This document shows positions 6,733 through 54,275 of a DNA stretch of 64,000 nt, in pieces. The notes under the pieces are model-generated. The model was given only the letters and a program-made list of their open reading frames with translations. It searched no databases and was not told where the DNA came from. The first letter of the stretch is position 1; each line of letters begins with the position of its first letter. The position numbers and the translations under genes were made by a program. Source of the stretch: Crambe crambe (taxonomy: Eukaryota > Porifera > Demospongiae > Poecilosclerida > Crambeidae); the NCBI GenBank assembly GCA_963924555.1, contig OZ004586.1:496001-560000 (forward strand). The letters are read 5' to 3'.

Positions 6733-9700
6733 CTAACAGTGTGAGTGGAAATAATCCACCACTTCACTCTGACCCTCTGCTTGGGCCAGCTGGAGTGGAG
6801 TCTTGTTAAACATGTTTTTGATGCTTGGGGAGCAATGGAAATGTTCGATGAAATACTTGATAGTTGCGAGCTGACCAAACTCTGCTGCCCAGTGGAGTGC
6901 AGTGCCTCTATTCTTGTCTTGTAACATAGCGTTGCATCCTTTGACTTCAGTTAGATATCGGATGATGGATAGGCGTCCATTCATGGCTGCAATATGTAAA
7001 GGTGTAGTGTTCCAGTCATCCAGAGAATTGGGATCGCAGGCATGATTCTCTATGAGATTCTTGACGAGGTGGAGGTGACCTTCTTGTGAAGCATCGTGAA
7101 GTGGTCGTCTTCCATACTGACCAGGAACATTAGGATTGCACTGCATAATGTTTATTAAATAGTCACAAACATCACTATGTCCATAAAGGGCTGCAAAGTG
7201 AAGTGGTGTGTTGTTCTGCTTGTCCCTACAGAGAGGATCACACCTCATGTCTTCACATAGATATTGCACTATTGATAAGTGCCCATTTTGTGCAGCAAGA
7301 CCTAGGGGGGTGCCATGCTCATCATTTCTACTCTCAGGGTCACACCCACACTCCATTATCAGGAACTTTACAATGGACAAGTGACCCTTCTGTGCAGCAG
7401 AAAAAAGAGGTCCTCCACCATGCTTACCACCATCTGGAAGGTTGGGGTCACAATTGCAGTCGTGGATAAAATATTTCAATGTTTCGATGTGACCAAATTG
7501 AGCTGCAACATGGACGGGAGAAGTCTGATACTTTGTGAAATCCTTGAAAATATCTTCCATCTTCATGAAGGTCAGCATTGTCTCCATCAAGTACTTCACT
7601 ACTTTTAAATTTCCACCCTGACAAGCACTGTGTAGAGGTGAGTAACCTTCCTCGTCCTGCTCAAGGGGATCGACTTGGTGCTTTTCGACTAGATACTGTA
7701 CTATGTTGATATGACCTGCTGCAGCTGCTTGGTGTAATGGTGTCATTCCATATTGACCTGATGCCGCAGGGTTGCATAGCTCACTTTCGATCAGGTGCTC
7801 CAGCACTTCCAATCTTCCATTGCTTGCTGCATAATGTAGTGATGTATTATTGTTTGCATCTTTTGTTAAGGGGTTGAGTCCCTTTGTGATGAGACGCTTC
7901 ACTTCTTCCAGGTCTCCTATTGCGGCAGCACGATGCAATTCAAAGCTCTGCTTGGTGGTGGTTTCTGCTGAGACTATCATGTCCAGTCGTGGGTCCTTCA
8001 AGTCTCTCCCAACATAGTCCTGTCATGTGAGGGAAGGAAATTCTCACTCTAGTACTAACATAATAGAGGAATTGTTGACTTATTAGCTATAGAAGTCTGG
8101 AAATTTATGGATTGTGCCACAGACATTACAACCATTGTTTACAAGTAACAGCAATTAAAAAATACATGGAAATTAAATTAATCAAATACAAGTAAGCTGT
8201 AACCATGGATATTAAAATTAGTAAACATTAGGTGTGAGTAAAATTACTATGCTCCATTGTTTTCTTGATCTCCAATTCTACCTATTAAGCTTCTTAAACA
8301 TTGTTCTATATGTAGCAATAAATTTATCAGCATTGAAGATATTCTTCTCTCAGTAAATGAAGTGACAAAACCCTTTCATAAGCTGTGTAGATGAGGGTTG
8401 ACTAAGAGGACTCTCTTGAAAAGGGAAAACAATGAGGGTAATTCATCCTGGCTCACTGAACCTCAGAAAGGTCTATGAGTAATTGCCTATTAAGCTCAAT
8501 TATGCCCTAAAGTTATTATGTCTAAATGTAAAAGAATATGCTACATCATTTATTCCTCCCTAATTATTGAATTAGGTAGAACTAGTAGCACGTTGATATT
8601 CTTATGTTAGGGAATGATGATTTTAAAATCCTTACCTGGAACACAGACATTACAACCATTGTTTACAAGCAACAGGAATTAAAAAATACATGGAAATTAA
8701 ATGGATATTAAAATTAGTAAAAACCTGATGTAAATGAGCTATTACTCTGAAATTTCCAAATGATATCAGTAGCAGGTTGATGCTTTTATGTTAGGGGAAT
8801 GATGACTTGTAAAATCCTTACCTGAAACTCATCAGAGATATTGGTACCGAGTCCTGATGTGAATATACTTCCACCATCATCTGAGTGAGTGGCAATACCT
8901 GTTCCAGTGATGTCACTAACTGTACCAAATGCTGAGTCAGCATCATCATCACCATCAATACCCTTCACCTTAAGGGCAGCCATTTCCCCCACTAGAGAGA
9001 GGACAGGGTCTGGGTAGGAGAAGAGATATCAGATGATGTCTAATACCAATGGAGAGAACTCACCTTTTCCCTTGTCATCAGTTGTGACCTGAGAAGAAAG
9101 ATTGAGACTCTGATCTCCATAGCTGATATTCACAAACCCCAGACTTTGCAAAGCAAGTTGTTGTTCTTCAGTAATAGCATCTATTATGCCATCATCCAAA
9201 ACTCGATATTTCAGCTCAATGCAACCTTCGTCAATATGCAGCAGTCGTAACACTGGACCTCCCAATGCTCTTCTCATAGCATACTCCAGTTTCTCAAACT
9301 CTTCAACAGTTGTTTTATCAATTTCCATTTCACTTTTGAGAGCGAATGTTTTTTCAGATTCTTCTCCACTGCCAAATGTATTTCTCGGACATTCACAAAC
9401 TCGCCTCTTGGAATAATCTTGAAAACTGTTCCTGAAATCTTCGAGTGCTTCTTTATTTCTTGGTGTACCAAATTTGTTTATCAAAAGTCTGATCAGATTA
9501 CGGTCATAGAAAGACCAAAACTTTGATGCTTTGCGAAATGCTTCTGCTATGGTTTTGCAACCTTGTAGTAATTCTTCAAACTTTGCTTCGTGGAAGGTTA
9601 GGAAGCTGTGAAAGTCATCTAGTTTGCACTTTTCTTCGACAGACTTTTGAAGGTCAAAGACGAGGTTAGTAAATTCAGCTTTCAAATATTCAGTTTCTTC

Positions 9701-10789
9701 CTGCAACTGTCTCATTTTAAACCTTTTCTCTCTTTCTGACATCCCATCGGTAGGTAAGAATGGAAAACATGGAATGAGATCCACAGCACTCATATCTGAA
9801 ATTTCAAGTAACACGCTTGAATAAATTGATCTTAACTTCCCTCAGAACAGTACCTGAACTAGAGGATGAGCTGACTGTGGAAGGAGCAGGTTCGATATTC
9901 AATTGATCTAAAGACATAAAATGAAGATAAAGTCACTTATCAAGTATCATTCCTCCTTACCTTCAGTACTCATGTCAGATGGTGTGGGAGTGTCTGATGT
10001 CAACTGTTGAACACCTGTAACAAAATAAGCCCCGAAAATCATTAGCTAACTGGTTATATTGACTGGCATTATGAGATCATGTATTTCAGTTGATCTTTAG
10101 AATGGACCTTTATTTTATCAGAAGCTCACAACTAGTTGATTTGGATACTGAGTAGTTACTAGTCCAGAATTAGCTGTAGCTAACTACCTTGTGCAATCTT
10201 TTGAGTGAGTCCTTCATGACCAATAGTTCTGAGTGCTTTCATCAAGCTCTCCCAGGTGGGTTTACCACTCTTCTTCATCACATTATCTTGCTGATTGAGC
10301 CAAGCTAAAACCATATCTCCACGAAGAGGGTTCATCATCTTCAAGTTGGTATACTGGAGACCCAGTGCTAAACCCAATTGTATCAAATCTTCTGGAAGTA
10401 GGGTTTTCAAAAATTGAGTTACTTCAAAGAGATCATCCACTGTTAGTTGTGCTACATAATTAATAAGTAACAGTGTATGGGAACTTGATATTGTTAGACT
10501 TACTCTCTGGGCCTGGGTTAGATTCGACATCACCACAGAGTATCAAGAGAGAGGGGAGAACTGTCAGTGCAAAGGACAGGTTGAGAAGGGAGCCATGATC
10601 CCCCAGATCAGATTGAACACAGAAGGTTTTTGATGTGGGGGAAGAGAGATCACCAACAAGCACTGGATAAAGAAAGGATGAGTGTCTAGTTATCACTAAA
10701 GGAAGTTGGAGAATACTTATTGTTCTTCTGTGTAGACAGGAAATAAAACATAGTTGCATACCTTTGAGGGTTATTTCAGCTTCTTTCAT
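6733..10789 (-). CDS. 2A-Death-ANK gene 1: putative death-domain/ankyrin receptor with 2A leader
   Basis: My model is complement(join(6733..8019, 8822..9009, 9064..9795, 9854..9907, 9961..10014, 10188..10451, 10504..10662, 10762..10789)): 2766 bases, 921 residues, every junction GT-AG and in phase. Residues 1-53 are a leader with a hydrophobic run (LSFALTVLPSLLILC), and 54-61 are the 2A motif DVESNPGP. Residues 64-149 form a death domain ending PTWESLMKALRTIGHEGL, and 151-186 a Thr/Ser/Pro linker. Residues 187-430 are a conserved unnamed domain (FWSFYD, KRRVCECP, HIDEGCIELKY), 431-493 an acidic Gly/Ser-rich stretch, and 494-921 about eleven ankyrin repeats in one exon. Death domains normally make homotypic signalling contacts in the cytosol, and ankyrin repeats bind proteins. 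The receptor role is inferred. The start is the first Met kept in all copies. AATAAA lies at 6564-6569. The large intron 8020-8821 shows no other gene. Confidence 0.85.
8020..8821 (-). other. Large intron with an internal duplication and vestigial donor
   Basis: A block around CAGACATTACAACCATTG, with the following tract TTACAAG, occurs at about 8120-8180 and again at 8640-8700. At the second site, reading on the minus strand, TTCCAG|GTAAGG forms a splice donor equal to the one ending the real upstream exon. All paralogues keep this arrangement. It may be a dead duplicated exon end. Confidence 0.4.
10508..10531 (-). other. 2A ribosome-skipping motif, gene 1
   Basis: The eight codons encode DVESNPGP, matching the 2A consensus D-(V/I)-E-x-N-P-G-P. 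A Gly precedes it and a hydrophobic stretch lies upstream, as in known 2A sequences. The predicted break falls between the last Gly and Pro. The motif ends four bases from the exon's 3' end, and the death domain begins almost at once in the next exon. Confidence 0.85.
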
Positions 10790-11600: not shown

Positions 11601-12900
11601 AGCTTGCGGCGAACTCCAACTTGAAGTGCGTGGCCAGGAGTGGAAGCAGCTTCTGCTATTGTCTGTTGTTGGAGAGGTGAAATGACATGAACATCCACAG
11701 CAGCTGGCCATCCGTCGCTCCAATTTGGGGAGCAGGACATCTCCTGGGCGTTCAGAATATGTACATATTATAGTAGCTGTTGAAATTCAATTCCAGGATG
11801 TAGCCGTCTTTTATAACATCATAACCTACGAAAGAACAACTCTGGATTTGAGACACCTGGATGGTTAGACAGAATAATTATAATGACCACTGTTAACTGT
11901 ATTACATTTTAAACCAGGGGGCGTGCTTGTGTGAGAAAAAATGTGCTATATAAAGACACATTCAATTTCAGGATCTCAATCAGAGGGGATCTCCCCCTTT
12001 CCTCCTCCGCTGTATGAAACCCTGATAACTTATGGAGAGCAAGCAGATGCAAATAAATTTGATATAGGTCTGATGAAAAGTATGTACATGTATGAAAAAT
12101 GAGCAACACTTCTTAGTAATGACTTTTTAACCAAGTACATGTACATACCTTTCCTGGTTTAACATTTTTCATGTTGAATTAATTTCATATCTACTAATTG
12201 ACTTTAATACTACTTACACACTTCTTTTGTAAATAATTTTCGTCATTTAACATGATACGAAAATATTTTAACAATGAAATAAAAGTGATTTAAGGGTATG
12301 AAGAGAAAAGTAAGTCAAATTCTGCCAATTACATTAAAGTATAAGCAAACTATTATAGTTTCTTCATCCAGACAACAGTAGTCAAATCTTATTTTGAGAA
12401 TGAGCTTTCTTTTTTGTAAGTGGCATGGACCTACTAGCAGTGTTCTCCCCAAATATTAGTGAAGGAATAGGAGTGATTTCACACATCAAAGGCTAGTATT
12501 CTATTGACCACATAGAAGGGAAGATGGCATAGTGGACTACCCTGCATAAGACTTGTAACAGGAGCTTTAAAAAAAACCCAAATTTTATTGTTCTCCAGCA
12601 GGCGGAGCTGCTGGAGAACCTATACAAGACAGAACCTCCTACAGAGATGGAAATCATCATGCTAATGATATCAACACAGTCAAAGACAACAAATCCCTGA
12701 TCAATACAGCTGTGAAAGCCAAAGAGAACACCCTCACAGTATTGCCAGTATACCAAAACAAGACCTTCTGAGATCTTTTTTGAGAAAAAGGAAACCTCAG
12801 GCTTGTAAAGCCAATCTCCCAACTGAATCCTCAATGCTAAAATCAATCCTGTGTCCTATAAAACTGATCGAGTATACTTGGCCTAAACAAATTTTCATAC

Positions 12901-17416: not shown

Positions 17417-20400
17417 TCAGTAGAAGAAAAGTAGTGAGTAGAAATAACCCACCACTTCACTGTGACCCTTTGCTTGGGCCAGCTGGAGTGGAGTCTCGTT
17501 CAACCTGTTTCTGATGTTTGGGGAGCAATGGAGATGTTCGATGAGATACTTGACAGTTGTGAGCTGACCATATGCTGCTGCCCAGTGAAGTGCAGTGCCT
17601 ATTGTCTTGCTTTGTAACATAGCGTTGCATCCTTTGACTTCAGTTAGATATTGGATGATGGATAGGTGTCTTTTGATGGCTGCAATATGTAAAGGTGTAG
17701 AATTGCTGTCATCCAGAGAATTGGGGTCGCAGGCATGATTCTCTATGAGATTCTTGACGAGGTGGAGGTGACCTTCTTGTGAAGCATCGTGAAGTGGTCG
17801 TCTTCCATACCAACCAGGAACATTAGGATTGCACTGCATAATGTTTATTAAATAGTCACAAACATCACTATGTCCATAAAGGGCTGCATTGTGAAGTGGC
17901 ATGTCGTCATACTTGTCCCTACAGAGAGGATCACACCTCATGTCTTCACATAGATATTTCACTATTGATAAGTGCCCAAACTGTGCAGCAAGACCTAGGG
18001 GAGTGACATGCTGACTATTTCTACTCTCAGGGTCACACCCACACTCCATTATCAGGAACTTGACAATGGACAAGTGACCCCTCTGTGCAGCATCAAAAAG
18101 AGGTCCTCCACCATGCACACCACTAGGAAGGTTGGGGTCACAATTGCAGTCGTGGATAAAATATTTCAATGTTTTGATGTGACCAAATTGAGCTGCAACG
18201 TGGACGGGAGAAGTCTGATACTTTGTGAAATCCTTGAAAATATCTTCCATCTTCATGAAGGTCAGCATTGTCTCCATCAAATACTTCACTACTTTTAAAT
18301 TTCCACCACCACAAGCTCTGTGTAGAGGTGAGGTACCTTCCTCATCCTGCTCAAGGGGATCGACTTGGTGCTTGTCGACTAGATACTGTACTATGTTGAG
18401 ATGACCTGCTTCAGCTGCTTGGTGTAATGGTGATGTTCCTTGCCAGCCTAACACAGAAGGGTTGCATAGCTCATTCTCAATCAGGTGCTCAAGCACTTCC
18501 AACTTTCCGTTGATAGCTGCATAATGTAGTGATGTATTATTGTTCGCATCTTTTGTTAAGGGGTTGAGTCCCTTTGTGATGAGACGCTTCACTTCTTCCA
18601 GGTCTCCTATTTCGGCAGCATGATGCAGTTCCAAGCTCTGCTTGGTGGTGGTTTCTGCTGAGACTATCATGTCCAGTCGTGGGTCCTTCAAGTCTCTCCC
18701 AACATAGTCCTGTCATGTGAGGGAAGGAAATTCTCACTCCAGTACTAACATAATAGAGGAATTGTTGACTTATTAGCTATAGAAGTCTGGAAATTTATGG
18801 ACTGTGCCACAGACATTACAACCATTGTTTACAAGTAACAGCAATTAAAAAATACATGGAAATAAAATTAATCAAATACAAGTAAGCTGTAACCATGGAT
18901 ATTAAAATTAGTAAACATTAGGTGTGAGTAAAATGACTATGCTCCATTGTTTTCTTGATCTCCAATTCTATCTATTATGCTTCTTAAACATTGTTCTATA
19001 TGTAGCAATAAATTTATCAGCATTGAAGATATTCTTCTCTCAGTAAATGAAGTGACAAAACCCTTTCATAAGCTGTGTAGATGAGGGTTGACTAAGAGGA
19101 CTCTCTTGAAAAGGGAAAACAATGAGGGTAATTCATCCTGGCTCACTGAACCTCAGAAAGGTCTATGAGTAATTGCCTATTAAGCCCTAAAAGTTATTAT
19201 GTCTAAATGTAAAAGAATATGCTACATCATTTATTATTGAATTAGGTAGAACTAGTAGCACGTTGATATCTTTATGTTAGGGGAATGATGATTTTAAAAT
19301 CCTTACCTGGAACACAGACATTACAACCATTGTTTACAAGTAACAGAAATTAAAAAATACATTGAAACTAAATACAAATAAGCTGTAACCATGGATATTA
19401 AAATTCATAAAAATCTAATAATGCTATCATCCCTAATTATGAGCTATTACTCTGTAATATCAGTAGCAGGTTGATGCTTTTATGTTAGGGAATGATGATT
19501 TTAATATCCTTACTTGGAACTCATCAGAGATATCGGTACCGAGTCCTGATGTGAATATGCTTCCACCATCATCTGAGTGAGTGGCAATACCTGTTCCAGT
19601 GATGTCACTAACTGTGCCAAATGCCGAGTCAGCATAGTCATCACCATCAATACCCTCCACCTTAAGGGCAGCCATTTCCCCCACTAGAGAGAGGACAGGG
19701 TCTGGGTAGGGCAAGAGATATCAGATGACGTCAAATACCAATGGAGATAACTCACCTTTACTCTTATCATCAGTTGTGACCTGAGAAAAAAGATTGAGAC
19801 TCTGGTCTCCATAACTGATATTCACAAACCCTAGACTTTGCAAAGCAAGCTGTTGTTCTTCAGTAATAGCATCTATTATGCCGTCATCCAAAGCTCGGTA
19901 CTTCAGCTCGATGCAACCTTCATCAATATGTAGCAGTCGTAACACTGGACCTCCCAATGCTCTTCTCATAGCATGCTCCAGTTTCTCAAACTCTTCAACA
20001 GTTGTTTTATCGATTTTCATTTCACTTTTGAGAGCGAGCATTTTTTCAGATTCTTCTTCACTACCAAATGTATCGCTCGGACATTCACATATTCGCCTCT
20101 TGGAATAATCTTGAAATCTCTTCCTGAAATCTTTGAGTGCTTCTTTATTTCTTGACGTACCAAATCTGTTCATCAAAAGTTTGATCAGATCACGGTCATA
20201 GAAAGACCAAAACTTTGATGCTTTGCGAAATGCTTCAGGTATGGTTTTACAGCCTTGTAGTAATTCTTCAAACTTTACATCATGGAATGTTAGGAAGCTG
20301 TGAAGGTCATCTAGTGTGCACTTTTCTTCAATGGACTTTAGAAGATCAAAGACGAGGTTAGTAAATTTAGCTTTCAAACGTTCAGTTTCTTTCTGCAACT

Positions 20401-22112
20401 GTCTCATTTTAAACCTTTTCTCTTTTTCTGACATCCCATCGGTAGGTAAGAATGGAAAACATGGAATGAGATCCACAGCACTCATATCTGAAATTTCAAG
20501 TAACACGCTTGAATAAATTGATCTTAACTTCCCTCAGAACAGTACCTGAACTGGAGGATGAGCTGACTGTGGAAGGAGCAGGTTCTGGACATTCAACATT
20601 CAGTTGATCTAAAATGAAGATAAAATCATTCCCTTGTTAAGAATTTTTTTTTGATTTACCTTCAGAATTCATGTCACATGGTGTGGGAGTGTCTAATGTC
20701 AACTGTTGAACATCTGTAACAAAATAAGCCCCGAAAATCATTAACTGTTTTGTTATATCAACTGGCATTATGAGACCATGTATTTCAGTTGATTTTTATC
20801 AGAAGCCAATCATATCCACAACTAGTTGATTTGGATACTGAGCATAGGCGTAGGAAGCATGGGGGCCATGGGGGCCATGGCCCCCATGCCTAGTTATAAT
20901 GAAATTTTTTTTTACACTAGCATCAAAACCACAAGCTCAATAGTTATAGAATGCATGACTGTATAGAGTCAGCTGATTCATTCCCACAACTATTGCTTGT
21001 GATTTTGATACCTCTTTAGCAGCTGCTGCACTGTATTAGCTAACTACTGTAGCCAGGAGTTTCTAAAACCAGTCATGAAAAGACAGCTAAGTCTAAGCCA
21101 ATTGTTCAGGTGGAAAAAAGGCCAGCGTGCCATCCTGAACCCTCTCTCAGGTGAGGTTTTTTTATTAGTAGGTCCCAGACTGAGAGTCAAGATTGAATAA
21201 TGTTATGCTTCTCCATACACACAAAGACGTCACGGATGACTTAGACATTATTAAAATTGCTAAAGAATTTATTTCAGAAGATTGAACTATTTTGCATTGC
21301 CTTAGCTAATTGATTAATTTTTAGTAATTGTTACATGTAGTCGCATGTGCATGATCCCTACCCAACTTTGTGCCCCCATGCTTAAAATCATCTTCCTACG
21401 CCTATGCTGAGTAGTTAATAGTCCAGTATTAGCAGTAACTACCTTGTGCAATCTTTTGAGCGAGTCCTTCATGACCAATAGTTCTGAGTGCTTTCATCAA
21501 GCTCTCCCAGGTGGGTTTACCACTCTTCTTCATCACATTATCTTGTTGATTGAGCCAAGCCAAAACCATGTCTCCACAAATGGAGTTCATCAGCTTCAAG
21601 TTGCTGTAGTGAAGACCCAATGCCCCACCCAACTGTATCAAGTCTTCTGGAAGAAGAGTCTTCAAATATTGAGTAACTTCGAAATGGTCATCCACTGTTA
21701 GTATTGCTACAAACAAACAAACAAACAAACAAACAAACAAACAAACAAACAAACAAGGTGAAGAGATGGATGAGCTAAAGTAACAGTGTATGGGGAGCTT
21801 GATATCAATAAATATTGTTAGACTTACTCTCTGGGCCTGGGTTAGATTCGACATCACCACAGAGTATCAAGAGAGAGGGGAGAACTGTCTGTGCAAAGGA
21901 CAGGTTGAGAAGGGAGCCATGATCCCCCAGATCAGATTGAACACAGAAGGTGTTTGGTGTGGGGGAAGAGAGATCACCAACAAGCACTGGATAAAGAAAG
22001 GATGAGTGTCTAGTATCACTAAAGGAAGTTGGAAAATACCTATTTTTCTCCTATGTAGGCAAAAAATAAAACATAGTTGCATACCTTCGAGGGTTTTTTC
22101 AGCTTCTTTCAT
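17417..22112 (-). CDS. 2A-Death-ANK gene 2
   Basis: My model is complement(join(17417..18709, 19514..19701, 19756..20487, 20546..20608, 20660..20713, 21443..21706, 21828..21986, 22085..22112)): 2781 bases, 926 residues, all in phase. The domain order is as in gene 1: leader with QTVLPSLLILC and DVESNPGP, death domain, linker (three residues longer than in gene 1), unnamed domain, acidic exon, ankyrin exon. One splice donor follows CAA rather than CAG (exon edge 19514), a mild weakening. The intron between the linker and death-domain exons carries a 564-bp insertion, and the death/2A intron carries an (ACAA)n repeat. The ankyrin repeats differ from gene 1 mostly at surface positions, for example LHYAAINGKLEV against LHYAASNGRLEV. 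The C-terminus is extended (FYSLLFFY). Function is inferred as in gene 1. Confidence 0.85.
20843..21406. mobile_element. 564-bp inverted-repeat insertion in an intron of gene 2
   Basis: It starts CATAGGCGTAGGAA and ends TTCCTACGCCTATG, perfect terminal inverts. CTGAG flanks both sides (20838-20842 and 21407-21411). Genes 1 and 3 have the uninterrupted site GGATACTGAGTAGTTA, which proves insertion. An internal GGGGGCCATG repeat sits near the left end. There is no obvious coding capacity, so it is probably non-autonomous. Confidence 0.75.
21708..21757. repeat. (ACAA)n microsatellite in intron of gene 2
   Basis: A near-perfect CAAA/ACAA tetranucleotide array sits directly beside the death-domain exon acceptor. 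On the minus strand it reads TTTG/TGTT and replaces the usual pyrimidine tract upstream of the acceptor. The equivalent intron of gene 4 has a shorter related array near 39325-39360. Confidence 0.9.
21832..21855 (-). other. 2A motif, gene 2
   Basis: Encodes DVESNPGP preceded by Gly and the same hydrophobic stretch as gene 1. The residues around the motif are conserved, although the leader upstream differs by substitutions. Confidence 0.85.
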
Positions 22113-28261: not shown

Positions 28262-31200
28262 CTAACAGTGTGAGTGGAAATAATCCACCACTTCACTGTG
28301 ACCCTCTGCTTGGGCCAGCTGGAGTGGAGTCTTGTTAAACATGTTTCTGATGTTTGGGGAGCAATGGAGATGTTCGATGAAATACTTGATAGTTGCAAGT
28401 TGACCATACTCTGCTGCCCAGTGAAGTACAGTGCCATACTTCTTGTCTTGTAACATAGCGTTGCATCCTTTGACTTCAGTTAGATATCGGATGATGGATA
28501 GGTGTCCATCCATGGCTGCAATATGTAAAGGTGTAGAATTGCTGTCATCCAGAGAATTGGGGTCGCAGGCATGATTCTCTATGAGATTCTTGACGAGGTG
28601 GAGGTGACCTTCTTGTGAAGCATCGTGAAGTGGTCGTCTTCCATACTCACCAGGAACATTAGGATTGCACTGCATAATGTTTATTAAATAGTCACAAACA
28701 TCACTATGTCCATTAAGGGCTGCATGGTGAAGTGGCATGGCGTCATACTTGTCCCTACAGAGAGGATCACACCTCATGTCTTCACATAGATATTGCACTA
28801 TTGATAAGTGCCCAAACTGTGCAGCAAGACCTAGGGGGGTGACATGCTCATCATTTCTACTCTCAGGGTCACACCCACACTCCATTATCAGGAACTTGAC
28901 AATGGATAAGTGACCCCACTGTGCAGCATCAAAAAGAGGTCCTCCACCATGCACACCACCAGGAAGGTTGGGGTCACAATTGCAGTCGTGGATAAAATAT
29001 TTCAATGTTTTGATGTGACCAAATTGAGCTGCAACGTGGACGGGAGAAGTCTGATACTTTGTGAAATCCTTGAAAATATCTTCCATCTTCATGAAGGTCA
29101 GCATTGTCTCCATCAAGTACTTCACTACTTTTAAATTTCCACCACCACAAGCACTGTGTAGAGGTGAGTAACCATCCTCGTCCTGCTCAAAGGTATCGAC
29201 TTGGTGCTTTTCGACTAGATACTGTACTATGTTGAGATGACCATGTTCAGCTGCTTGGTGTAATGGTGTTGTTCCTTGCCAGCCTAACACAGATGGGTTG
29301 CATAGCTCATTCTCAATCAGGTGCTCAAGCACTTCCAACTTTCCATGAAAAGCTGCTTCATGTACAGGTGCATTATTGTTTGCATCTTTTGTTAAGGGGT
29401 TGAGTCCCTTTGTGATGAGACGCTTCACTTCTTCCAGGTCTCCTATTTTGGCAGCATGATGCAATTCCAAGCTCTGCTTGGTGGTGGTTTCTGCTGAGAC
29501 TATCATGTCCAGTCGTGGGTCCTTCAAGTCTCTCCCAACATAGTCCTGTCATGTGAGGGAAGGAAATTCTCACTCTAGTACTAACATAATAGAGGAATTG
29601 TTGACTTATTAGCTATAGAAGTCTGGAAATTTATGGATTGTGCCACAGACATTACAACCATTGTTTACAAGTAGCAGCAATTAAAAAATACATGGAAATT
29701 AAATTAATCAAATACAAGTAAGCTGTAACCATGGATATTAAAATTAGTAAAGATTAGGCGTGAGTAAAATTACTCTGCTCCATTGTTTTCTTGATCTCCA
29801 ATTCTACCTATTATGCTTCTTAAAATTGTTCTATATGTAGCAATAAATTTATCAGCATTGAATATGTGACAGTACTTGGGAAAAGGTACCTTTTCGCGCA
29901 AAACATTAAAAGCTGTTAAACACTTGTAAAGTTTACAAGTTACATATAAAATGTACAAGAGATGATAAATTCAATTAAGTATAACTCAGGAACAAAGTGG
30001 TGTATAAATTTGATTTAAAAGCCATGTAAATCTCTAGATTAAGAGCTTTAAAATGATACAATAACTCAATTTTGAATTTTTGCGCGAATAGGTACCTTTT
30101 CCCAAGTACTGTCACATATATTCTTCTCTCATTAAATGAAGTGACAAAACCCTTTCATAAGCTGTGTAGATGAGGGTTGGACTAAGAGGACTCTCTTGAA
30201 AAGGGAAGACAATGAGGGTAATTCATCCTGGCTCACTGAACCTCAGAAAGGTCTATGAGTAATTGCCTATTAAGCTCAATTATGTTATTATGCCTAAATG
30301 TAAAAGAATATGCTACATCATTTATTCTTCCCTAATTATTGAATTAGGTAGAACTAGTAGCACGTTGATATTCTTACGTTAGGGGAATGATGATTTTAAA
30401 ATCCTTACCTGGAACACAGACATTACAACCATTGTTTACAAGCAACAGGAATTTAAAAATACATGGACATTAAATGGATATTAAAATTAGTGAAAACCTG
30501 ATGTAAATGAGTAATGCTATCATCCGTAATTATGAGCTATTACTCTGAAATTTCCAAATAATATCAGTAGCAGGTTGATGGTTTTATGTTAGGGGTGAAT
30601 TATAATTTTTAATATCCTTACCTGGAACTCATCAGAGATATTGGTACCGAGTCCTGATGTGAATATGCTTCCACCATCATCTGAGTGAGTGACAATACCT
30701 GTTCCAGTGATGTCACTAACTGTGCCAAATGCTGAGTCAGCATCATCATCACCATCACTACCTTCCACCTTAAGGGCAGCCATTTCCCCCACTAGAGAGA
30801 GGACAGGGTCTGGGTAGGAGAAGAGATATCAGATGACGTCAAATACCAATGGAGAGAACTCACCTTTTCCCTTATCATCAGTTGTGACCTGAGAAGAAAG
30901 ATTGAGACTCTGGTCTCCATAACTGATATTCACAAACCCTAGATTTTGCAAAGCAAGCTGTTGTTCTTCAGAAATAGCATCTATTATGCTGTCATCCAAA
31001 GTTCTGTACTTTGACTCGATGCAACCTTCGTCAATATGTAGCAGTCGTAACACTGGACCTCCCAATGCTCTTCTCATAGCATGCTCCAGTTTCTCAAACT
31101 CTTCAACAGTTGTTTCATCGATTTTCATTTCACTTTTGAGAGAGAGAGTTTTTTCTGACTCTTCTTCACTACCAAATGTATCGCTCGGACATTCACAAAT

Positions 31201-32651
31201 TCGCCTCTTGGAATAATCTTGAAATCTCTTCCTGAAATCTTTGAGTGCTTCTTTATTTCTTGTCGTACCAAATTTGTCCATCAAAAGTTTGATCAGATCA
31301 CGGTCATAGAAAGACCAAAACTTTGATGCTTTGCGAAATGCTTCTGCTATGGTTTTGCAGCCTTGTAGTAATTCTTCAAACTTTACATCATGGAAGGTTA
31401 GGAAGCTGTGAAGGTCATCTAGTGTGCACTTTTCTTCAATGGACTTTAGAAGATCAAAGACGAGGTTAGTAAATTTAGCTTTCAAACGTTCAGTTTCCTT
31501 CTGCAACTGTCTCATTTTAAACCTTTTCTCTTTTTCTGACATCCCATTGGTAGGTAAGAATGGAAAACATGGAATGAGATCCACAGCACTCATATCTGAA
31601 ATTTCAAGTAACAAACTTGCATAAATTGATCTTAACTTCCCTCAGAACAGTACCTGAACTAGAGGATGAGCTGACTGTGGAAGGAGCAGGTTCTGGACAT
31701 TCAACATTCAGTTGATCTAAAATGAAGATAAAATCATTCCCTTGTTAAGAATTTTTTCTGATTTACCTTCAGAACTCATGTCAGATGGTGTTGGAGTGTC
31801 TGATGTCAACTGTTGAACACCTGTAACAAAATAAGCCCCGAAAATCATTAACTAACTGGTTATATTGACTGGCATTATAAGATCATGTATCTCAGTTGAT
31901 CTTTAGAATGGATCTTTATTTTATCAGAAGCTAATCATATCCACAACTAGTTGATTTGGATACTGAGTAGTTACTAGTCCAGTATTGGCAGTAACTACCT
32001 TGCGCAATCTTTTGAGCAAGTCCTTCCTGACCAATAGTTCTGAGTGCTTTCATCAAGCTCTCCCAGGTGGGTTTACCACTCTTCTTGATCACATTATCTT
32101 GCTGATTGAGCCAAGCCAAAATCATGTCTCCACAGAGAGGGTTCATCATTTTCACGTTGCTGTACTTGAGCCCCAATGCCCCACCCAAGCGTATCAAGTC
32201 TTGTGGAAGAAGAGTTTCCAAGTATTCAGTGACTTCAAAATGATCATCTATCGTCAGTTGTGCTAATAAAGGAGTGAAAAGAAAAGGTGATTTGAGGGTG
32301 ATATAGTACCATAATTCTAAGCATGCATGTTCCTGCAGCTAAGTTCAGTATCTAAAGATCATTCAAATTTTAGACTTACTCTCTGGGCCTGGGTTAGTTT
32401 CAACATCACCACAGAGTATCAAGAGAGAGGGGAGAACTGTCTGTGCAAAGGACAGGTTGAGAAGGGAGCCATGATCCCCCAGATCAGATTGAACACAGAA
32501 GGTGTTTGGTGTGGGGGAAGAGAGATCACCAACAAGCACTGGATAAAGAAAGGATGAGTGTCTAGTTATCACTAAAGGAAGTTGGAAAAGCTATGTAGGT
32601 GGGAATAAAACACAGCTACATACCTTTGAGGGTTTTTCCAGCTTCTTTCAT
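28262..32651 (-). CDS. 2A-Death-ANK gene 3
   Basis: My model is complement(join(28262..29545, 30622..30809, 30864..31595, 31654..31716, 31767..31820, 31999..32262, 32380..32538, 32624..32651)): 2772 bases, 923 residues, all junctions in phase. Domains are as in gene 1. The 2A motif is DVETNPGP here (Thr for Ser), still within the consensus. In the ankyrin exon the first repeat changes to PVHEAAFHGKLEV, and several later surface positions differ. The large intron carries a 250-bp inverted-repeat insertion. The 5' flank (32660-33000) diverges from the other copies and lacks the TATATA/CCGGAAAC block, so its regulation may differ. Confidence 0.85.
29866..30115. mobile_element. 250-bp inverted-repeat insertion in the large intron of gene 3
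   Basis: Termini GTGACAGTACTTGGGAAAAG and CTTTTCCCAAGTACTGTCAC are perfect inverts. ATAT flanks both ends (29862-29865 and 30116-30119). The paralogous introns have the empty site GCATTGAAGATATTCTTC, which differs from the reconstructed empty site by one base. The duplication may be ATAT, or TA with a slightly longer inverted repeat. No coding capacity. Confidence 0.8.
32384..32407 (-). other. 2A motif, gene 3 (Thr variant)
   Basis: Encodes DVETNPGP. The Ser-to-Thr change is at the freely variable x position of the consensus, so skipping is expected to be retained. Confidence 0.85.
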
Positions 32652-35803: not shown

Positions 35804-38800
35804 CTAACAGAGTGAGTGGAGATAATCCACCACTTCACTGTGACCCTCTGCTTGGGCCAGCTGGAGTGGAGTCTCGTTAAACATGTTTCTGATGTTTGGG
35901 GAGCAATGGAGATGTTCGATGAAGTACTTGACAGTCGCTAGTTGACCAAACACTGCTGCTGTGTGGAGTGCAGTGCCTGATATCTTGTCTTGTAACATAG
36001 CGTTGCATCCTTTGACTTCAGTTAGATATCGGATGATGGATAGGTGTCCTTTCTTGGCTGCAATATGTAAAGGTGTAGAATTGCTGTCATCCAGAGAATT
36101 GGGGTCACAGGCATGATTCTCTATGAGATTCTTGACGAGGTGGAGGTGACCTTCTTGTGAAGCATAGTGAAGTGGTCGACTTCCATACTGACCAGGAACA
36201 TTCGGATTGCAATGCATAATGTTTATTAAATAGTCACAAACATCACTATGTCCATAAAGGGCTGCATAGTGAAGTGGTGTGCTGTTACGCTTGTCCCTAC
36301 AGAGAGGATCACACCTCATGTCTTCACATAGATATTGCACTATTGATAAGTGCCCACACTGTGCAGCAAGACCTAGGGGGGTGACATGCTCATCATTTCT
36401 ACTCTCAGGGTCACACCCACACTCCATTATCAGGAACTTGACAATGGACAAGTGACCCCTCTGTGCAGCAGCATGGAGAGGTCCTATACTTTCCACACCA
36501 CTAGGAAGGTTGGGGTCACAATTGCAGTCGTGGATAAAATATTTCAATATTTTGATGTGACCATGCAGAGCTGCAAGGTGGATGGGAGAAGTCCGATGCT
36601 TTGTAAAATCCTTGAAAATATCTTCCATCTTCATGAAGGTCAGCATTGTCTCCATCAAGTACTTCACTACTTTTAAATTTCCACCCTGACAAGCTCTGTG
36701 TAGAGGTGAGTAACCATCCTCGTCCTGCTCAAGGGGATCGACTTGGTGCTTGTCGACTAGATACTGTACTATGTTGAGATGACCTGTTTCAGCTGCTTGG
36801 TGTAATGGTGTCGTTCCATATTGACCTAACGCCGCAGGGTTGCATAGCTCACTTTCGATCAGGTACTCCAGCACTTCCAATCTTCCATCGCTAGCTGCTC
36901 GATGTAGTGATGTATTATTGTTCGCATTTTTTGTTAAGGGGTTGAGTCCCTTTGTGATGAGACACTTCACTTCTTCCAGGTCTCCTATTGCGGCAGCACG
37001 ATGCAATTCCAAGCTCTGCTTGGTGGTGGTTTCTGCTGAGACTATCATGTCCAGTCGTGGGTCCTTCAAGTCTCTCCCAACATAGTCCTGTCATGTGAGG
37101 GAAGGAAATTCTCACTCTAGTACTAACATAATAGAGGAATTGTTGACTTATTAGCTATAGAAGTCTGGAAATTTATGGATTGTGCCACAGACATTACAAC
37201 CATTGTTTACAAGTAACAGCAATTAGAAAATACAATGAAATTAAATTAATCAAATACAAGTAAGCTGTAACCATGGATATTAAAATTAGTAAATATTAGG
37301 TGTGAGTAAAATGACTATGCTCCATGATTGTTTTCTTGATCTCCAATTCTACCTATTATGCTTCTTAAACATTGTTCTATATGTAGCAATAAATTTATCA
37401 GCATTGAAGATATTCTTCTCTCATTAAATGAAGTGACAAAACCCTTTCATAAGCTGTGTAGATGAGGGTTGGACTAAGAGGACTCTCTTGAAAAGGGAAG
37501 ACAATGAGGGTAATTCATCCTGGCTCACTGAACCTCAGAAAGGTCCATGAGTAATTGCCTATTAAGCTCAATTATGCCCTAAAAGTTATTATGTCTAAAT
37601 GTAAAAGAATATGCTACATCATTTATTCCTCCCTAATTATTGAATTAGGTAGAACTAGTAGCACGTTGATATTCTTACGTTAGGGGAATTCTAAAATCCT
37701 TACCTGGAACACAGACATTACAACCATTGTTTACAAGTAACAGCAATTAAAAAATACATGGAAATTAAATAATAAGTTGTAACCATGGATATTAAAATTA
37801 GTAAAAACCTAATGTAAATGAGTAATGCTATCATCTCTAATTATGAGCTATTACCCAAATAATATCAGTAGCAGGTTGATGGTTTTATGTTAGGGGAATG
37901 ATGATTCTTATATCCTTACCTGGAACTCATCAGAGATATTGGTACCGAGTCCTGATGTGAATATACTTCCACCATCATCTGAGTGAGTGGCAATACCTGT
38001 TCCAGTGATGTCACTAACTGTGCCAATTGCCGAGTCAGCATCATCATCACCATCAATACCCTTCACCTTAAGGGCAGCCATTTCCCCCACTAGAGAGAGG
38101 ACAGGGTCTGGGTAGGAGAAGAGATATCAGATGACGTCAAATACCAATGGAGAGAACTCACCTTTTCCCTTATCAACAGTTGAGACCTGAGAAGAAAGAT
38201 CGAGACTCTGGTCTCCATAGCTGATATTCACGAACCCCAGATTTTGCAGAGCAAGCTGTTGTTCTTCAGTAATAGCATCTATTATACCGTCATCCAAAGT
38301 TCGGTATTTCATCTTGAAACCTTCATCAATATGTAGCAGTCGTAACACTGGACCTCCCAATGCACTTTTCATCCTCTTCTCTAGTTTTCTGAATTCTTCG
38401 ATGGTCATTTTGTTAAGCTCTATTTTACTTTCCAGAGAGAGAACCTTTTCTGGTTTCCTTGCTTTACCAAATGCATTACTTGGACATTCACAAACTCGTC
38501 TTTTAGAATACTCCTGGATCTTTTGTTTAAAGCTTTTAAGTGCCTCTTTATTTTTTCTTCCACCAAATTTCTTAATCCAAAGCTTTATGATATGATGATC
38601 ATGAAAAGAACAAAATCTAGACACTCTGCGAAAAGCTTCAGTCATTGTATCACAACCTTCCCATAATTTTTCTTCGAAATTCATATTATGCAATTCAAGG
38701 AGGCTTAGAAAGTAATCGAATGTGTACGATTTTTGTAGAGACTCTAGAAGACCAGAGATGAGGTCAGCAAATTTTGTTTTCATCTTTTCAGTTTCTTGAT

Positions 38801-39705
38801 AAAGCTGACTCATTTTAATCTTTTTTTCATCTTCTGACATTCCATGAGTTGGGAGAAAAGGAAAATGTGGAATAAGGTCCACAACACTTAGCACTGAAAA
38901 ATTAGTAGTTATTAACACTTAGCATAGAAACACTTCAAATAACATACCTGAACTGGCGCATGAACTGACAGTAGAGGCAGCAGATTCTTGATATTGAGTT
39001 TTCAGTTGACCTGTTAAAGTAACAATGAGAATTGTACTTCATAGTTAGCCAATCTTTACCTTGTGCAATCTTTTGAGCAAGTCCTCCATGACCAATAGTT
39101 TCGAGTGCTTTCATCAAGCTCTTCCAGGTGGGTTTACCACTCTTCTTCATCACATTATCTTGCTGATTGAGCCAAGCCGAAGCCATATCTTCACGAAGAG
39201 GGTTCATCATCTTCAAGTTGTTATACTGAAGACCCAGTGCTAAACCCAACCGTATCAAGTCTTCTGGAAGTAGAGTTCCCAAATATTGGGTGACTTCAGA
39301 GAGATCATCCACTGTTAGTTGTGCTACAAAAGACAAAACAAAAACAAAAAACAAAACAAAATGAAGAGATGGATGAGCTGAAGTAACAGTGTATGGGGAT
39401 CTTGATATTGTTAGACTTACTCTCTGGGCCTGGGTTAGATTCGACATCACCACAGAGTATCAAGAGAGAGGGGAGAACTGTCTGTGCAAAGGACAGGTTG
39501 AGAAGGGAGCCATGATCCCCCAGATCAGATTGAACACAGAAGGTATTTGATGTGGGGGAAGAGAGATCACCAACAAGCACTGGATAAAGAAAGCAGGAGT
39601 GTCTAGTATCACTAAAGGAAGTTGGAAAATACCTATTTTTCTCCTATGTAGGCAGAAAATAAAACATAGCTGCATACCTTCGAGGGTTTTTTCAGCTTCT
39701 TTCAT
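35804..39705 (-). CDS. 2A-Death-ANK gene 4 (mosaic variant, one linker exon absent)
   Basis: My model is complement(join(35804..37087, 37920..38107, 38162..38893, 38948..39010, 39060..39323, 39421..39579, 39678..39705)): 2718 bases, 905 residues, in phase. The 54-base linker exon seen in genes 1-3 (TSDTPTPSDMSTE) is missing, and skipping it keeps the frame. The unnamed-domain exon is strikingly divergent in its first two thirds (for example FCSFHDHHIIKLWIKKFG). It becomes nearly identical to the paralogues from ALGGPVLRLLHIDEG on. The EGCIELKY motif of the others is EGFKMKY here. The 2A motif DVESNPGP and death domain are intact. The ankyrin exon has its own set of surface substitutions (LHRAASDGRLEV, LHTAAVFGQLAT). 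Confidence 0.85.
39425..39448 (-). other. 2A motif, gene 4
   Basis: Encodes DVESNPGP with the same hydrophobic upstream stretch, in spite of the strong divergence of this gene's unnamed domain. Confidence 0.85.
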
Positions 39706-41344: not shown

Positions 41345-42535
41345 ATTTTCCTTGTAGAGGAGTTTGCACTAAGCCTCCTTGCTTCTGCTTGGTCCTTGAA
41401 TACTGCCCTGAGGGCACGCTCTATGACTACACACGATTGGACATCGAGATCCTCCCCCCTCAAGTGGTCGGGTTGGCGAGGCATATCGGATCTATCTCCA
41501 CTCCAAGAAAATCATACACAGAGACATGAAGTTACTCGAGTGAGTCATGATATGCAACACAGAAAAGTCTGAAATAAGTGACTTGAAGATTGCATCATCC
41601 CATGGAGGACTGGGTGGTACCGTTTATTAAAAAAAACGAAACTGGAGTGAGGATGCCACCCATTTCCCATCCACACCTCCTTACCATTGTATTAAGTCTG
41701 TAATAGGGTATCCATAATAAGGTAATAACTATTGAAGTGTCCACAATAGGGTACAGGTATTCACTATTGGGTATTCATAATCCCACATCGATCAGTATTG
41801 TAGTCTTATTTGGTGTTCACACTAGAGGCAGTCACAATAGGGTTAGTGTCAGTGTAATTCATTACCTTTGTATGTGGTCACCATAGTCACCAAATTATAA
41901 ATATTTATGCCCGTTGCCATGAGATCATCAAGTCCTAACGCAATTCATGAGGTGTTGGTCACAAGGACCACATAGAGTGGTTTTATGAATATCAAGAAGG
42001 AGCTATGAGTGATTATGACCTCTCTCTCTATCATAGTATTCTTCTCTGCAATAACGATGTCCTGAAGATTTCCGACTTCGGAGTGAGTCGTCATTTTGGT
42101 GAGAAGAGCATGAAGATGACTTTTGTTGGAACGGTTGGGTGGATGTCTCCTGAGACGAGTTGTGCTAAGAGAAGGTGGACATCTGGTCCTACGGAATCCT
42201 GCTCTGGGAGATGCTCATGCAGGAGAAACCATACAATGTAAGTGAAATATAATGTGGAGTAACTCTAGCATATAAGGGAGTTAGGAATTTGGAGTCTTCT
42301 TTTAGACACAGCATTGACATTTTGTTGAACATAGCATTAGGTGTATCGCTATAGCAACCTTTGATACTGTTTGCATATTAGCTTATGAAACAAACCACCC
42401 TTCTTTCCAAGCTTATTTCTATTAAATTTTTTAATCATGTTAGCTGAGAAAAATAAGCAGTGTTTGCATATTATTTTGCAGAATGTGAGTTCCTCTGCAG
42501 TGATTTGGGGTGTTGGCAGTAACAGTCTCCACCTG
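41345..42535 (+). pseudogene. DLK/LZK-like MAP3K pseudogene e, truncated at an ankyrin junction
   Basis: Kinase C-lobe pieces are at about 41345-41536 and 42030-42240. The second keeps the activation loop [18 protein letters not shown] and [10 protein letters not shown] 10-base deletion then shifts the frame before the DIWSYG-type motif, and the LWEMLMQEKPYN segment survives in another frame. The next exon starts at 42481 ([15 protein letters not shown]) and is cut at 42535, where ankyrin sequence begins. The rest of the gene is absent. It is non-functional by these lesions. Confidence 0.75.
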
Positions 42536-42727
42536 GGGAGCAATGGAGATGTTCGATGAAATACTTGATAGTTGCAAGTTGACCATACTCTGCTGCCCAG
42601 TGAAGTGGAGTTCCAAGATCTTTATCTTGTAACATAGCGTTGCATCCTTTGACTTCAGTTAGATATCGGATGATGGATAGGTGTCCATTCATGGCTGCAA
42701 TATGTAAAGGTGTAGAATTCCTGTCAT
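42536..42727 (-). pseudogene. Ankyrin shard of a 2A-Death-ANK copy
   Basis: This 192-base piece matches the ankyrin exon of the paralogues (LHIAAMNGHLSIIRYLTEVK, LHWAAEYGQLATIKYF). It is cut on the left by the kinase exon and on the right at CTGTCAT, after which unrelated sequence starts. The last ankyrin repeat and the stop are missing. Confidence 0.85.
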
Positions 42728-43224
42728 GAATGTGAATGGAATTATTGTAGCTAATTGACATCTACCATAATAGCTACTGGCATCTGACTATAATATTGAA
42801 ACCTCCCTAATAGTAGAATATTAGAGGCTCTCCCCTCTTTCAGAGGTGAAAATCTATTAGCAGTCACTCTTAGCATGCTTTAGGTTGTTGAGACTGTCCT
42901 TTATCAGAGGTTGAATTGTGAGCACCGTACATGCAGTGAAATGAGTAGCTACATTCAATTGTACCAGTGAATTAAATGAATCATGAATTATGCAATTGTC
43001 CATAGTTATGCAGCCTTTTTGGTAATGAAAACAATTTAGTGTGAAAATTGAATGAATCAATGGGAAGGTGGGATGACTGTACGTATACACTCCATGTAAT
43101 CAGAGCATAGATAAGACATTATTGTACAGGAAGAGAAGGTGGAGGAAGAGTAGAAGGTAGGGGAAGAGTATAATAGTCTAAGTAACTATAGCTAGCTACG
43201 TACAATAATTCCATTCATAGGCTT
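42728..43224. other. Unassigned sequence between ankyrin shard and Helitron-like element
   Basis: No gene or repeat family is recognised. It may be the outer part of the Helitron-like element or unrelated unique sequence; the left boundary of the element could not be fixed. Confidence 0.3.
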
Positions 43225-52592: not shown

Positions 52593-54275
52593 ACTCTGAT
52601 CTCCATAGCTGATATTCACAAACCCCAGACTTTGCAAAGCAAGCTGTTGTTCTTCAGTAATAGCATCTATTATGCCATCATCCAAAACTCGATATTTCAG
52701 CTCAATGCAACCTTCGTCAATATGCAGCAGTCGTAACACTGGACCTCCCAATGCTCTTCTCATAGCATACTCCAGTTTCTCAAACTCTTCAACAGTTGTT
52801 TTATCAATTTCCATTTCACTTTTGAGAGCGAGTGTTTTTTCAGATTCTTCTCCACTGCCAAATGTATCGCTCGGACATTCACATATTCGCCTCTTGGAAT
52901 AATCTTGAAAACTGTTCCTGAAATCTTCGAGTGCTTCTTTATTTCTTGGTGTACCAAATTTGTTTATCAAAAGTCTGATCAGATTACGGTCATAGAAAGA
53001 TCAAAACTTTGATGCTTTGCGAAATGCTTCTGCTATGGTTTTGCAGCCTTGTAGTAATTCTTCAAACTTTGCTTCGTGGAAGGTTAGGAAGCTGTGAAAG
53101 TCATCTAGTTTGCACTTTTCTTCGACAGACTTTTGAAGGTCAAAGACGAGGTTAGTAAATTCAGCTTTCAAATATTCAGTTTCTTCCTGCAACTGTCTCA
53201 TTTTAAACCTTTTCTCTCTTTCTGACATCCCATCGGTAGGTAAGAATGGAAAACATGGAATGAGATCCACAGCACTCATATCTGAAATTTCAAGTAACAC
53301 ACTTACATAAATAGATCTTAACTTCCCTCAGAACAGTACCTGAACTAGAGGATGAGCTGACTGTGGAAGGAGCAGGTTCGATATTCAATTGATCCAAAGA
53401 CATAAAATGAAGATAAAGTCACTTATCAAGTATCATTCCTCCTTACCTTCAGTACTCATGTCAGATGGTGTGGGAGTGTCTGATGTCAACTGTTGAACAC
53501 CTGTAACAAAATAAGCCCCGAAAATCATTAACTAACTGGTTATATCAACTGGCATTATGAGATCATGTATTTCAGTTGATCTTTAGAATGGACCTTTATT
53601 TTATCAGAAGCTCACAACTAGTTGATTTGGATACTGAGTAGTTACTAGTCCAGAATTAGCTGTAGCTAACTACCTTGTGCAATCTTTTGAGTGAGTCCTT
53701 CATGACCAATAGTTCTGAGTGCTTTCATCAAGCTCTCCCAGGTGGGTTTACCACTCTTCTTCATCACATTATCTTGCTGATTGAGCCAAGCTAAAACCAT
53801 ATCTCCACGAAGAGGGTTCATCATCTTCAAGTTGGTATACTGGAGACCCAGTGCTAAACCCAATTGTATCAAATCTTCTGGAAGTAGGGCTTTCAAAAAT
53901 TGAGTTACTTCAAAGAGATCATCCACTGTTAGTTGTGCTACATAATTAATAAGTAACAGTGTATGGGAACTTGATATTGTTAGACTTACTCTCTGGGCCT
54001 GGGTTAGATTCGACATCACCACAGAGTATCAAGAGAGAGGGGAGAACTGTCTGTGCAGAGGACAGGTCGAGAAGGGAGCCATGATCCCCCAGATCAGATT
54101 GAACACAGAAGGTTTTTGATGTGGGGGAAGAGAGATCACCAACAAGCACTGGATAAAGAAAGGATGAGTGTCTAGTTATCACTAAAGGAAGTTGGAGAAT
54201 ACTTATTGTTCTCCTGTGTAGACAGGAAATAAAACATAGTTGCATACCTTTGAGGGTTATTTCAGCTTCTTTCAT
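52593..54275 (-). pseudogene. Truncated 2A-Death copy lacking the ankyrin exon
   Basis: The exons match gene 1 at an offset of 43486: start exon 54248-54275, 2A exon 53990-54148, death-domain exon 53674-53937, then linker exons and the unnamed-domain exon up to 53281. The last is cut at 52593 by the Helitron-like element, so the acidic exon and ankyrin repeats are gone. A TGA at 53001-53003 replaces the Trp codon of the conserved FWSFYD motif. The 5' half, including DVESNPGP and the death domain, is still open. A short leader-plus-death-domain product remains possible but is unproven. Confidence 0.85.
53994..54017 (-). other. 2A motif in the truncated copy
   Basis: Encodes DVESNPGP, as in gene 1. 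The hydrophobic stretch reads AQTVLPSLLILC here, as in genes 2-4, where gene 1 has ALTVLPSLLILC. Confidence 0.8.

Follow-up and report, generated by a model that had tools for sequence, protein, structure and literature searches.

The 64-kb stretch of the Crambe crambe genome analysed here (contig OZ004586.1, called C9 below, positions 496001-560000; "the window") holds five gene copies in which a 2A or StopGo motif stands ahead of a death-fold domain, and the question it raises is what an element of this kind does at the N-terminus of a cellular protein. The assembly comprises 143 Mb in 119 contigs (C numbers; L numbers denote individual loci), and searches of its DNA were genome-wide except where the window is named. 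On the strength of the gene models, the genome-wide recurrence of the motif, its codon constraint and its pairing with death-fold exons, we conclude that the exon probably encodes an active StopGo/2A leader with which the proteins of a death-fold/ankyrin multigene family begin.

A six-frame search of the window recovered GDVE[S/T]NPGP in all five copies, each on the minus strand and at the position that a first-pass annotation of this DNA gives (see the table below). That annotation was also correct in naming Ser-to-Thr as the only change in the motif, as four copies read GDVESNPGP and one (core starting at 32384) reads GDVETNPGP, and in its central statement that the motif lies in frame at the N-terminus, directly ahead of a death-fold domain, in genes with ankyrin repeats. 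The interval it had marked in copy 1 (10504-10662) coincides exactly with one predicted exon of 159 nucleotides (nt), which in every copy is preceded by an AG acceptor and followed by a GTAAGT donor. Where it had the protein start in this region with a short leader, the gene model departs from it: the exon contains no in-frame ATG, and the start codon sits in a separate exon of 28 nt, ATGAAAGAAGCTGRAAWAACCCTCRAAG, which has a GTATGY donor in all five copies and encodes MKEA... plus one base, so that the leader, encoded by two exons, counts 60 residues up to the Gly. Start, 2A and death-fold exons join in one open frame with canonical splice sites in 5/5 copies, and the protein of copy 1 begins MKEAEITLKVLVGDLSSPTSKTFCVQSDLGDHGSLLNLSFALTVLPSLLILCGDVESNPG^PETQLTVDDLFEV... 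The death domain was said to begin within a few residues of the motif, which holds for the spliced protein (...NPGP-ETQLT[V/I]DD..., or ETILTVDD in copy 2) but not for the DNA, where an intron of 52-121 nt separates the two exons. Both borders of the 2A exon are in phase 1, and the exon could therefore be swapped between genes without loss of frame. The hydrophobic run ahead of the core is present as claimed, but its strength is moderate, with a best 15-residue Kyte-Doolittle mean of 1.83-2.31 for the two window copies computed, and it starts only at residue 38.

The codon pattern for D(V/I)ExNPGP, hereafter an exact 2A site, occurs at 150 places in the genome (98 with GAT, 52 with GAC), whereas the reversed pattern that served as control occurs at none and a hand estimate with equal base frequencies gives about 0.2 expected by chance; chance or a repeat artefact was rejected on the basis of this control. 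When one mismatch is allowed the number becomes 212, i.e. 149 exact sites and 63 near-misses, with the control still at 0, and decayed or variant forms must therefore exist too. Two features that were not imposed by the first search pattern accompany the core, namely a Gly before the Asp, in 149 of the 150 exact sites and in all window copies, and the ending [A/C/S]G, present at each of the 58 sites whose upstream letters were read; at 57 of these at least three of the four residues preceding [A/C/S]G are hydrophobic. The window's own hexapeptide, LLILCG, fits by eye the L-rich class of StopGo sequences, which is described as linked with Asp at position 12 (p12) and of which a motif-6 example is reported to be active in vitro (PMC12846837). 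The exact sites are spread over 13 contigs, with the largest clusters at C9:0.31-0.57 Mb (23 sites), C10:4.68-4.98 Mb (18), C8:0.60-1.09 Mb (15) and C5:5.78-6.37 Mb (11), and the leader sequences differ between clusters.

In the case of the family to which the window belongs, a DNA search with the 2A exon yielded 27 copies on C9, four fragments on C5 and five distant relatives on C10. The octapeptide codons are kept in 27/27 C9 copies and the exon is open into the octapeptide in 26, the remaining one (L025) being frameshifted upstream; two copies (L024 and L027) show exon length changes of 3 and 9 nt. The start exon, of 28 nt or in some copies 9 nt shorter, was found in 24, and 26 have a death exon no more than 1.5 kb downstream (13 by script, 13 by eye). 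The remaining copy (L018, minus strand) has no death exon; some 200-1500 nt after its 2A it carries instead an open reading frame (ORF) of 436 amino acids (aa) with repeated SETVD segments, many N-x-S/T sites and no Pfam match at E 0.01.

Changes were placed on a tree of the 24 C9 copies that have the 159-nt exon. Codons 1-28 took 36 nonsynonymous and 16 synonymous changes (omega 0.83, p=0.32 versus neutrality), codons 29-52 took 7 and 10 (omega 0.26, p=0.006) and the last ten codons 2 and 7 (omega 0.09, p=0.001), with Fisher p=0.048 for codons 1-28 versus 29-52, in a test that rests on few changes and that gene conversion among the tandem copies could distort; a pairwise version gave omegas of 0.95, 0.23 and 0.08, respectively. 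It is the hydrophobic-plus-2A stretch that is constrained, whereas the remainder of the leader shows no measurable constraint. The length of the constrained stretch is about that needed for 2A activity, for which some 25 aa are reported to be required (PMC11512398), and as codons 1-28 are without significant constraint, nothing suggests a tuned signal peptide there. By its core, the Gly before the Asp, its L-rich class and a constraint confined to the 2A stretch, the element qualifies as a genuine 2A/StopGo sequence, as had been proposed. The C10 relatives (L031-L035, at 0.59-0.86 Mb, about 70% identical in DNA to the window exon) were considered as divergent 2As and rejected, their cores being decayed in 5/5 to DIKMNPGP, NIKMNPGQ or DIKMNPAGP, some with stops; three of the four C5 fragments were examined (L036-L038) and lack the core.

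The association with death-fold exons extends well beyond this family. Three death types (window, C8 and C10), taken from 2A loci and picked after a first Pfam Death result had been seen, were searched singly, and the best 150 places of each were used. Of the 150 exact sites, 90 are followed on the same strand by an exon of one of these types at a distance of up to 3 kb (median 369.5 nt), whereas no such exon lies upstream of any site or on the other strand. Four more sites have other death exons (C1:4423311, C5:4672866, C5:4695419 and C5:9022716; the second of these, L042, scores below the Pfam cut-off), which brings the sites with a death-fold exon within this distance to at least 94. Of the best 150 window-type places, 41 are preceded by a 2A at no more than 1 kb, compared to a mean of 0.2 and a maximum of 3 in 1,000 random placements that used approximate lengths for some contigs; 15 of these places do not belong to the window family and are found on C8, C9, C11, C12, C20 and C21. 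A profile of three death exons matched, at E below 0.05, ORFs downstream of 14 of 30 sampled 2A sites (3 seeds), the best antisense control having an E of 0.7. The first-pass view of a single family describes the window copies, but the pairing of 2A with death exons is found throughout the genome and includes NLR-type genes (NOD-like receptors, NLRs).

What follows the death exon varies between loci; the exon sets given here are ordered exons on one strand, from which we infer membership in one gene. At L070 (C10:4.70 Mb) the order is 2A, death-type exon, immunoglobulin (Ig) domain (Ig_2 7.4e-7) and a single ORF with NACHT (2.5e-12) and leucine-rich repeats (LRR_6 1.8e-43), i.e. the combination of NACHT and LRR in one gene that marks an NLR, whereas window copy 1 has ankyrin repeats instead. 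L057 (C5:9.02 Mb) has 2A, Death (5.9e-10) and the start of a NACHT (1e-8); at L012 (C9:0.80 Mb) a window-type 2A and death exon precede a B-box (1.7e-6) and a filamin match just under its cut-off (7.3e-5); L058 (C6:8.36 Mb) has 2A and then ankyrin repeats, and L051 (C5:6.04 Mb) a C8-kind leader ahead of a window-type death exon. At L045 (C5 leader, minus strand) no death exon was seen within 1.5 kb; an ORF lies about 440 nt after the 2A, and we take it to resemble a piece of a RecQ-type helicase.

The term death domain proved right by profile comparison, whereas single sequences miss it in Pfam. Of 13 members of the window type, five reach Pfam Death weakly and below its cut-off (best E 0.023), but a profile-profile comparison with five other death exons of the genome gives 96.2% and E 2.1e-9; that profile contains L040 and L057, which pass Pfam Death, and two C8-type members. 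The window-type fold appears to agree, at modest confidence, with that of a death domain, a six-helix bundle, and a search of PDB sequences with the death exons returned nothing meaningful (best E 0.9). The C10 type, as in L070, is likewise recognised as death (97.4%, E 1.5e-11; 30% identity to L040), and two C8-type places (C9:1486685 and C9:1557490) coincide with Pfam Death places. Further downstream, the middle region of copy 1 (9098-9784) matches the stretch before the NACHT in L070 (7569-8228 of that locus) with 25% identity over 126 aa (pairwise E 3e-10); on this similarity the two appear to be one shared unnamed module, distantly alike.

The core is canonical, p11 is Gly and the hexapeptide is L-rich, which makes StopGo activity likely. 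StopGo is described as depending on the nascent peptide within the exit tunnel (PMC12846837), and in our gene model the leader more than covers the 25-30 or so in-frame residues needed upstream. Ribosomes would then complete the leader of 60 residues, release it by skipping the Gly-Pro bond and continue with a cytosolic protein whose N-terminus is Pro-Glu-Thr and which contains the death fold, the middle region and the ankyrin repeats, while a minority fused product would keep the hydrophobic leader. The likely use would be a signalling-competent receptor with a fixed N-terminus, made in a set ratio to the fused form, within an immune-type repertoire.

Besides the small number of changes in the constraint test, several observations weigh against this reading. 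No death exon was found at 56 of the 150 exact sites, the sequence letters of 58 of the 150 having been read. Conversely, a 2A lies within 3 kb of 91 of the 450 listed death places (42, 23 and 26 for the three types), so that most are without, and among the best 150 Pfam Death places a single one is preceded by a 2A at up to 1 kb, and another has one on the wrong side, within 3 kb downstream. In 5/5 of the decayed C10 relatives L031-L035, an open death exon of the C10 type follows after 379-581 nt, so such genes can lose the motif. Copy 5 of the window has kept its 2A despite being a broken gene, although recent damage would allow this. Finally, a protein search with the joined gene model of 885 aa (region 1-400) against some 5.8 billion proteins, with scores computed for the 7,993 candidates that had the most words in common with it, found no relative at E <= 0.001. 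As for NACHT, 2 of the 150 exact sites have a match from the 103 best listed within 20 kb downstream, and most top-scoring NACHT genes are therefore without an exact 2A nearby. Taken together, the few death and NACHT places with a 2A and the decayed cores imply that the 2A marks a subset of these genes and can be lost.

Four other explanations have to be weighed against a leader that acts by skipping. The leader might also be a signal sequence, as in sea-urchin NLRs, with the fused product secretory and the skipped one cytosolic. This we regard as possible, if on balance doubtful; the signal-sequence half of the first-pass idea is by analogy plausible, but weaker in the window family. It has a precedent in the assayed SpNLR2A6 (PMC4981915), and the hydrophobic run, present in the window family, is stronger at L070 (2.61) and L040 (3.53), of which the former has an Ig domain after its death exon; the N-x-S/T-rich ORF that replaces the death exon at L018 points the same way. 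In the window family, however, 37 residues precede the run, codons 1-28 are not significantly constrained and the constrained part is no longer than what a 2A is said to need (PMC11512398), while the C8-type leader of L060 is weakly hydrophobic (1.63; best 19-residue mean 0.79). Control through the new N-terminus is unlikely: here the leader would be waste and the N-terminal Pro would set the stability or acetylation of the death-fold protein. Skipping would indeed yield an N-terminal Pro-Glu-Thr in the window family, an N-terminal Pro is described as possibly destabilising (PMC12846837), and a leader with an unconstrained upstream part would fit; yet the residue after the Pro varies between families (E, G, K, A, T, Y), and no degron beyond the Pro itself can therefore be shared.

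That the exon goes unused, transcripts starting downstream of it or an out-of-frame ATG within the 2A codons starting the death protein with intron 2 retained, is very improbable. Such a frame does exist, as ATG TCG AAT opens MSNLTQAQR... through intron 2 into the death exon in copies 1, 2, 4 and 5 (ORFs at 10180-10542, 21429-21866, 38935-39459 and 53666-54028, minus strand), and the start exon was not found in three of the 27 C9 copies. In copy 3, however, the alternative frame does not run open from the 2A exon; all five window copies retain the start exon, the splice sites and the 2A frame, and these very codons are strongly constrained in the 2A frame. We give hardly any credence to the exon being a relic of a virus or of a 2A-bearing retrotransposon of the non-long-terminal-repeat (non-LTR) kind, duplicated without function. 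Odon et al. reportedly described in 2013 the 2A of APE-type non-LTR retrotransposons; these have the same core in animal genomes, but no reverse-transcriptase ORF was seen with the window leader. Two of the 150 exact sites lie within 6 kb of one of the 143 reverse-transcriptase places listed for the genome, yet only one of the two is on the same strand, and no place in the window is among these matches. Moreover, at 30/30 sites read outside the C9 family the open frame ends no more than 70 codons past the core, and GT[A/G]AG follows within 60 nt in 18 of the 30, as for an exon end, a pattern that is not that of a polyprotein. Constraint on the core and the absence of wrong-side sites for the three death types (0/150) do not fit drift either. 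An ancient origin by domestication is possible.

The nearest known system is that of the sea-urchin NLRs, about 35% of which (85/241) are reported to have 2A-like sequences, with leaders of 26 residues in all, 12 of 14 scoring as signal peptides, and with activity and targeting assayed for SpNLR2A6 (PMC4981915). Shared with these are a 2A at or near the N-terminus, a hydrophobic leader, a DEATH domain and membership of large immune-type families. As described, however, the sea-urchin proteins are DEATH-NACHT-LRR with 26-residue leaders, whereas those of the window are predicted ankyrin proteins with a two-exon leader of 60 residues; the position before DEATH agrees with the SpNLR2A type and the length does not. 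NLR-type, NACHT and B-box/filamin exon sets also occur in this genome, which differs from the sea-urchin case as reported. Among viral StopGo sequences the closest are motifs 2 and 6 of the L-rich class (Li et al. 2026, PMC12846837), which have D(V)ExNPGP, Gly at p11, an (A/S/C)G ending and Ser at p15, the last as in 4/5 window copies; there the element lies between two viral proteins, whereas here it is an N-terminal spliced exon of a cellular gene. The same account calls cellular use of StopGo rare, with the sea-urchin proteins as an example, and refers to a profile hidden Markov model survey of viral and cellular proteomes (Rao et al. 2025, Cell Rep. 44:115822). No open-licence PMC paper was found with both 'NPGP' and 'death domain', and none on 2A in sponge death-domain genes. 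What appears to be new is the occurrence of 2A in death-fold genes other than NLRs, ankyrin genes among them, together with a leader made from two exons and the number of sites in one genome, with priority uncertain because Rao et al. surveyed eukaryotic 2A. As transmembrane domains have been described in sponge NLRs, first in A. queenslandica (2026, PMC12909245), one might guess that 2A leaders could form part of them.

If the leaders are active, translational recoding would be a routine step in making innate immune receptors of this lineage: a single animal genome contains 150 exact sites, a death-fold exon follows at least 94 of these, and the receptor modules are of more than one kind. Gene models in which such exons are missing or start at the wrong place would overlook this step. 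The naturally different leaders that share one core form a ready test set. A bolder and rather unlikely extension would be a cellular StopGo regulon, in which a portable 2A-plus-death N-terminal cassette serves about a hundred or more immune-type genes with varied sensors (ankyrin, NACHT-LRR, B-box/filamin), by a logic shared with sea-urchin NLRs, and in which the skipped-to-fused ratio might be a control point responding to ribosome state. Such a shared logic would have to be very old in animals or to have evolved more than once, and infection or translation stress could then shift which receptor form is made.

Table 1. Exons and motif of the five gene copies in the window (positions count from the first letter of the window)
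Feature	Position	Strand	Basis
Copy 1 start exon (MKEAEITLK + one base), donor GTATGC	10762..10789	-	splice/frame model
Copy 1 2A leader exon, 159 nt, phase 1 at both ends	10504..10662	-	splice/frame model
Copy 1 2A core octapeptide DVESNPGP	10508..10531	-	six-frame search
Copy 1 death-fold exon	10186..10451	-	profile comparison, fold, frame
Copy 1 middle region, no Pfam family at E 0.1	9098..9784	-	Pfam, pairwise
Copy 1 ankyrin-repeat exon, 429 aa	6736..8022	-	Ank_2 1.3e-89
Copy 2 start exon	22085..22112	-	splice/frame model
Copy 2 2A leader exon (core 21832-21855)	21828..21986	-	motif + splice/frame model
Copy 2 death-fold exon	21441..21706	-	search + frame model
Copy 2 middle region	19790..20476	-	sequence comparison
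Copy 2 ankyrin exon	17420..18712	-	ORF; same repeat family as copy 1
Copy 3 start exon	32624..32651	-	splice/frame model
Copy 3 2A leader exon (core DVETNPGP, 32384-32407)	32380..32538	-	motif + splice/frame model
Copy 3 death-fold exon	31997..32262	-	search + frame model
Copy 3 middle region	30898..31584	-	sequence comparison
Copy 3 ankyrin exon	28265..29548	-	ORF
Copy 4 start exon	39678..39705	-	splice/frame model
Copy 4 2A leader exon (core 39425-39448)	39421..39579	-	motif + splice/frame model
Copy 4 death-fold exon	39058..39323	-	search + frame model
Copy 4 middle region	38196..38882	-	sequence comparison
Copy 4 ankyrin exon	35807..37090	-	ORF
Copy 5 start exon	54248..54275	-	splice/frame model
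Copy 5 2A leader exon (core 53994-54017)	53990..54148	-	motif + splice/frame model
Copy 5 death-fold exon	53672..53937	-	search + frame model
Copy 5 middle region, broken by stop codon	52566..53327	-	frame check
Ankyrin exon remnant, probably of copy 5, beyond Helitron-type ORF	42474..42761	-	repeat comparison

Copies 1-4 are open in the exons checked; the Pfam ankyrin test was run on copy 1, and the ankyrin exons of copies 2-4 were identified by ORF. Copy 5 is broken by the stop in its middle region and by a Helitron-type ORF that stands before the ankyrin remnant. This ORF (44623-51735, minus strand, 2371 aa), which sits inside the remains of copy 5, has Helitron_like_N (7.1e-29), a PIF1 helicase and two OTU stretches. 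Identical ORFs of 120 aa (12493-12855 and 55993-56355, minus strand) lie at matching distances from copies 1 and 5, and the DNA upstream of these two copies is nearly identical as well; by this resemblance their surroundings appear to stem from a recent segmental duplication, the two segments lying about 43.5 kb apart. The sole match of the window to Rfam at the gathering threshold is SNORD57 (3828-3893, plus strand, 53.7 bits), a small nucleolar RNA that is usually found in NOP56 introns.
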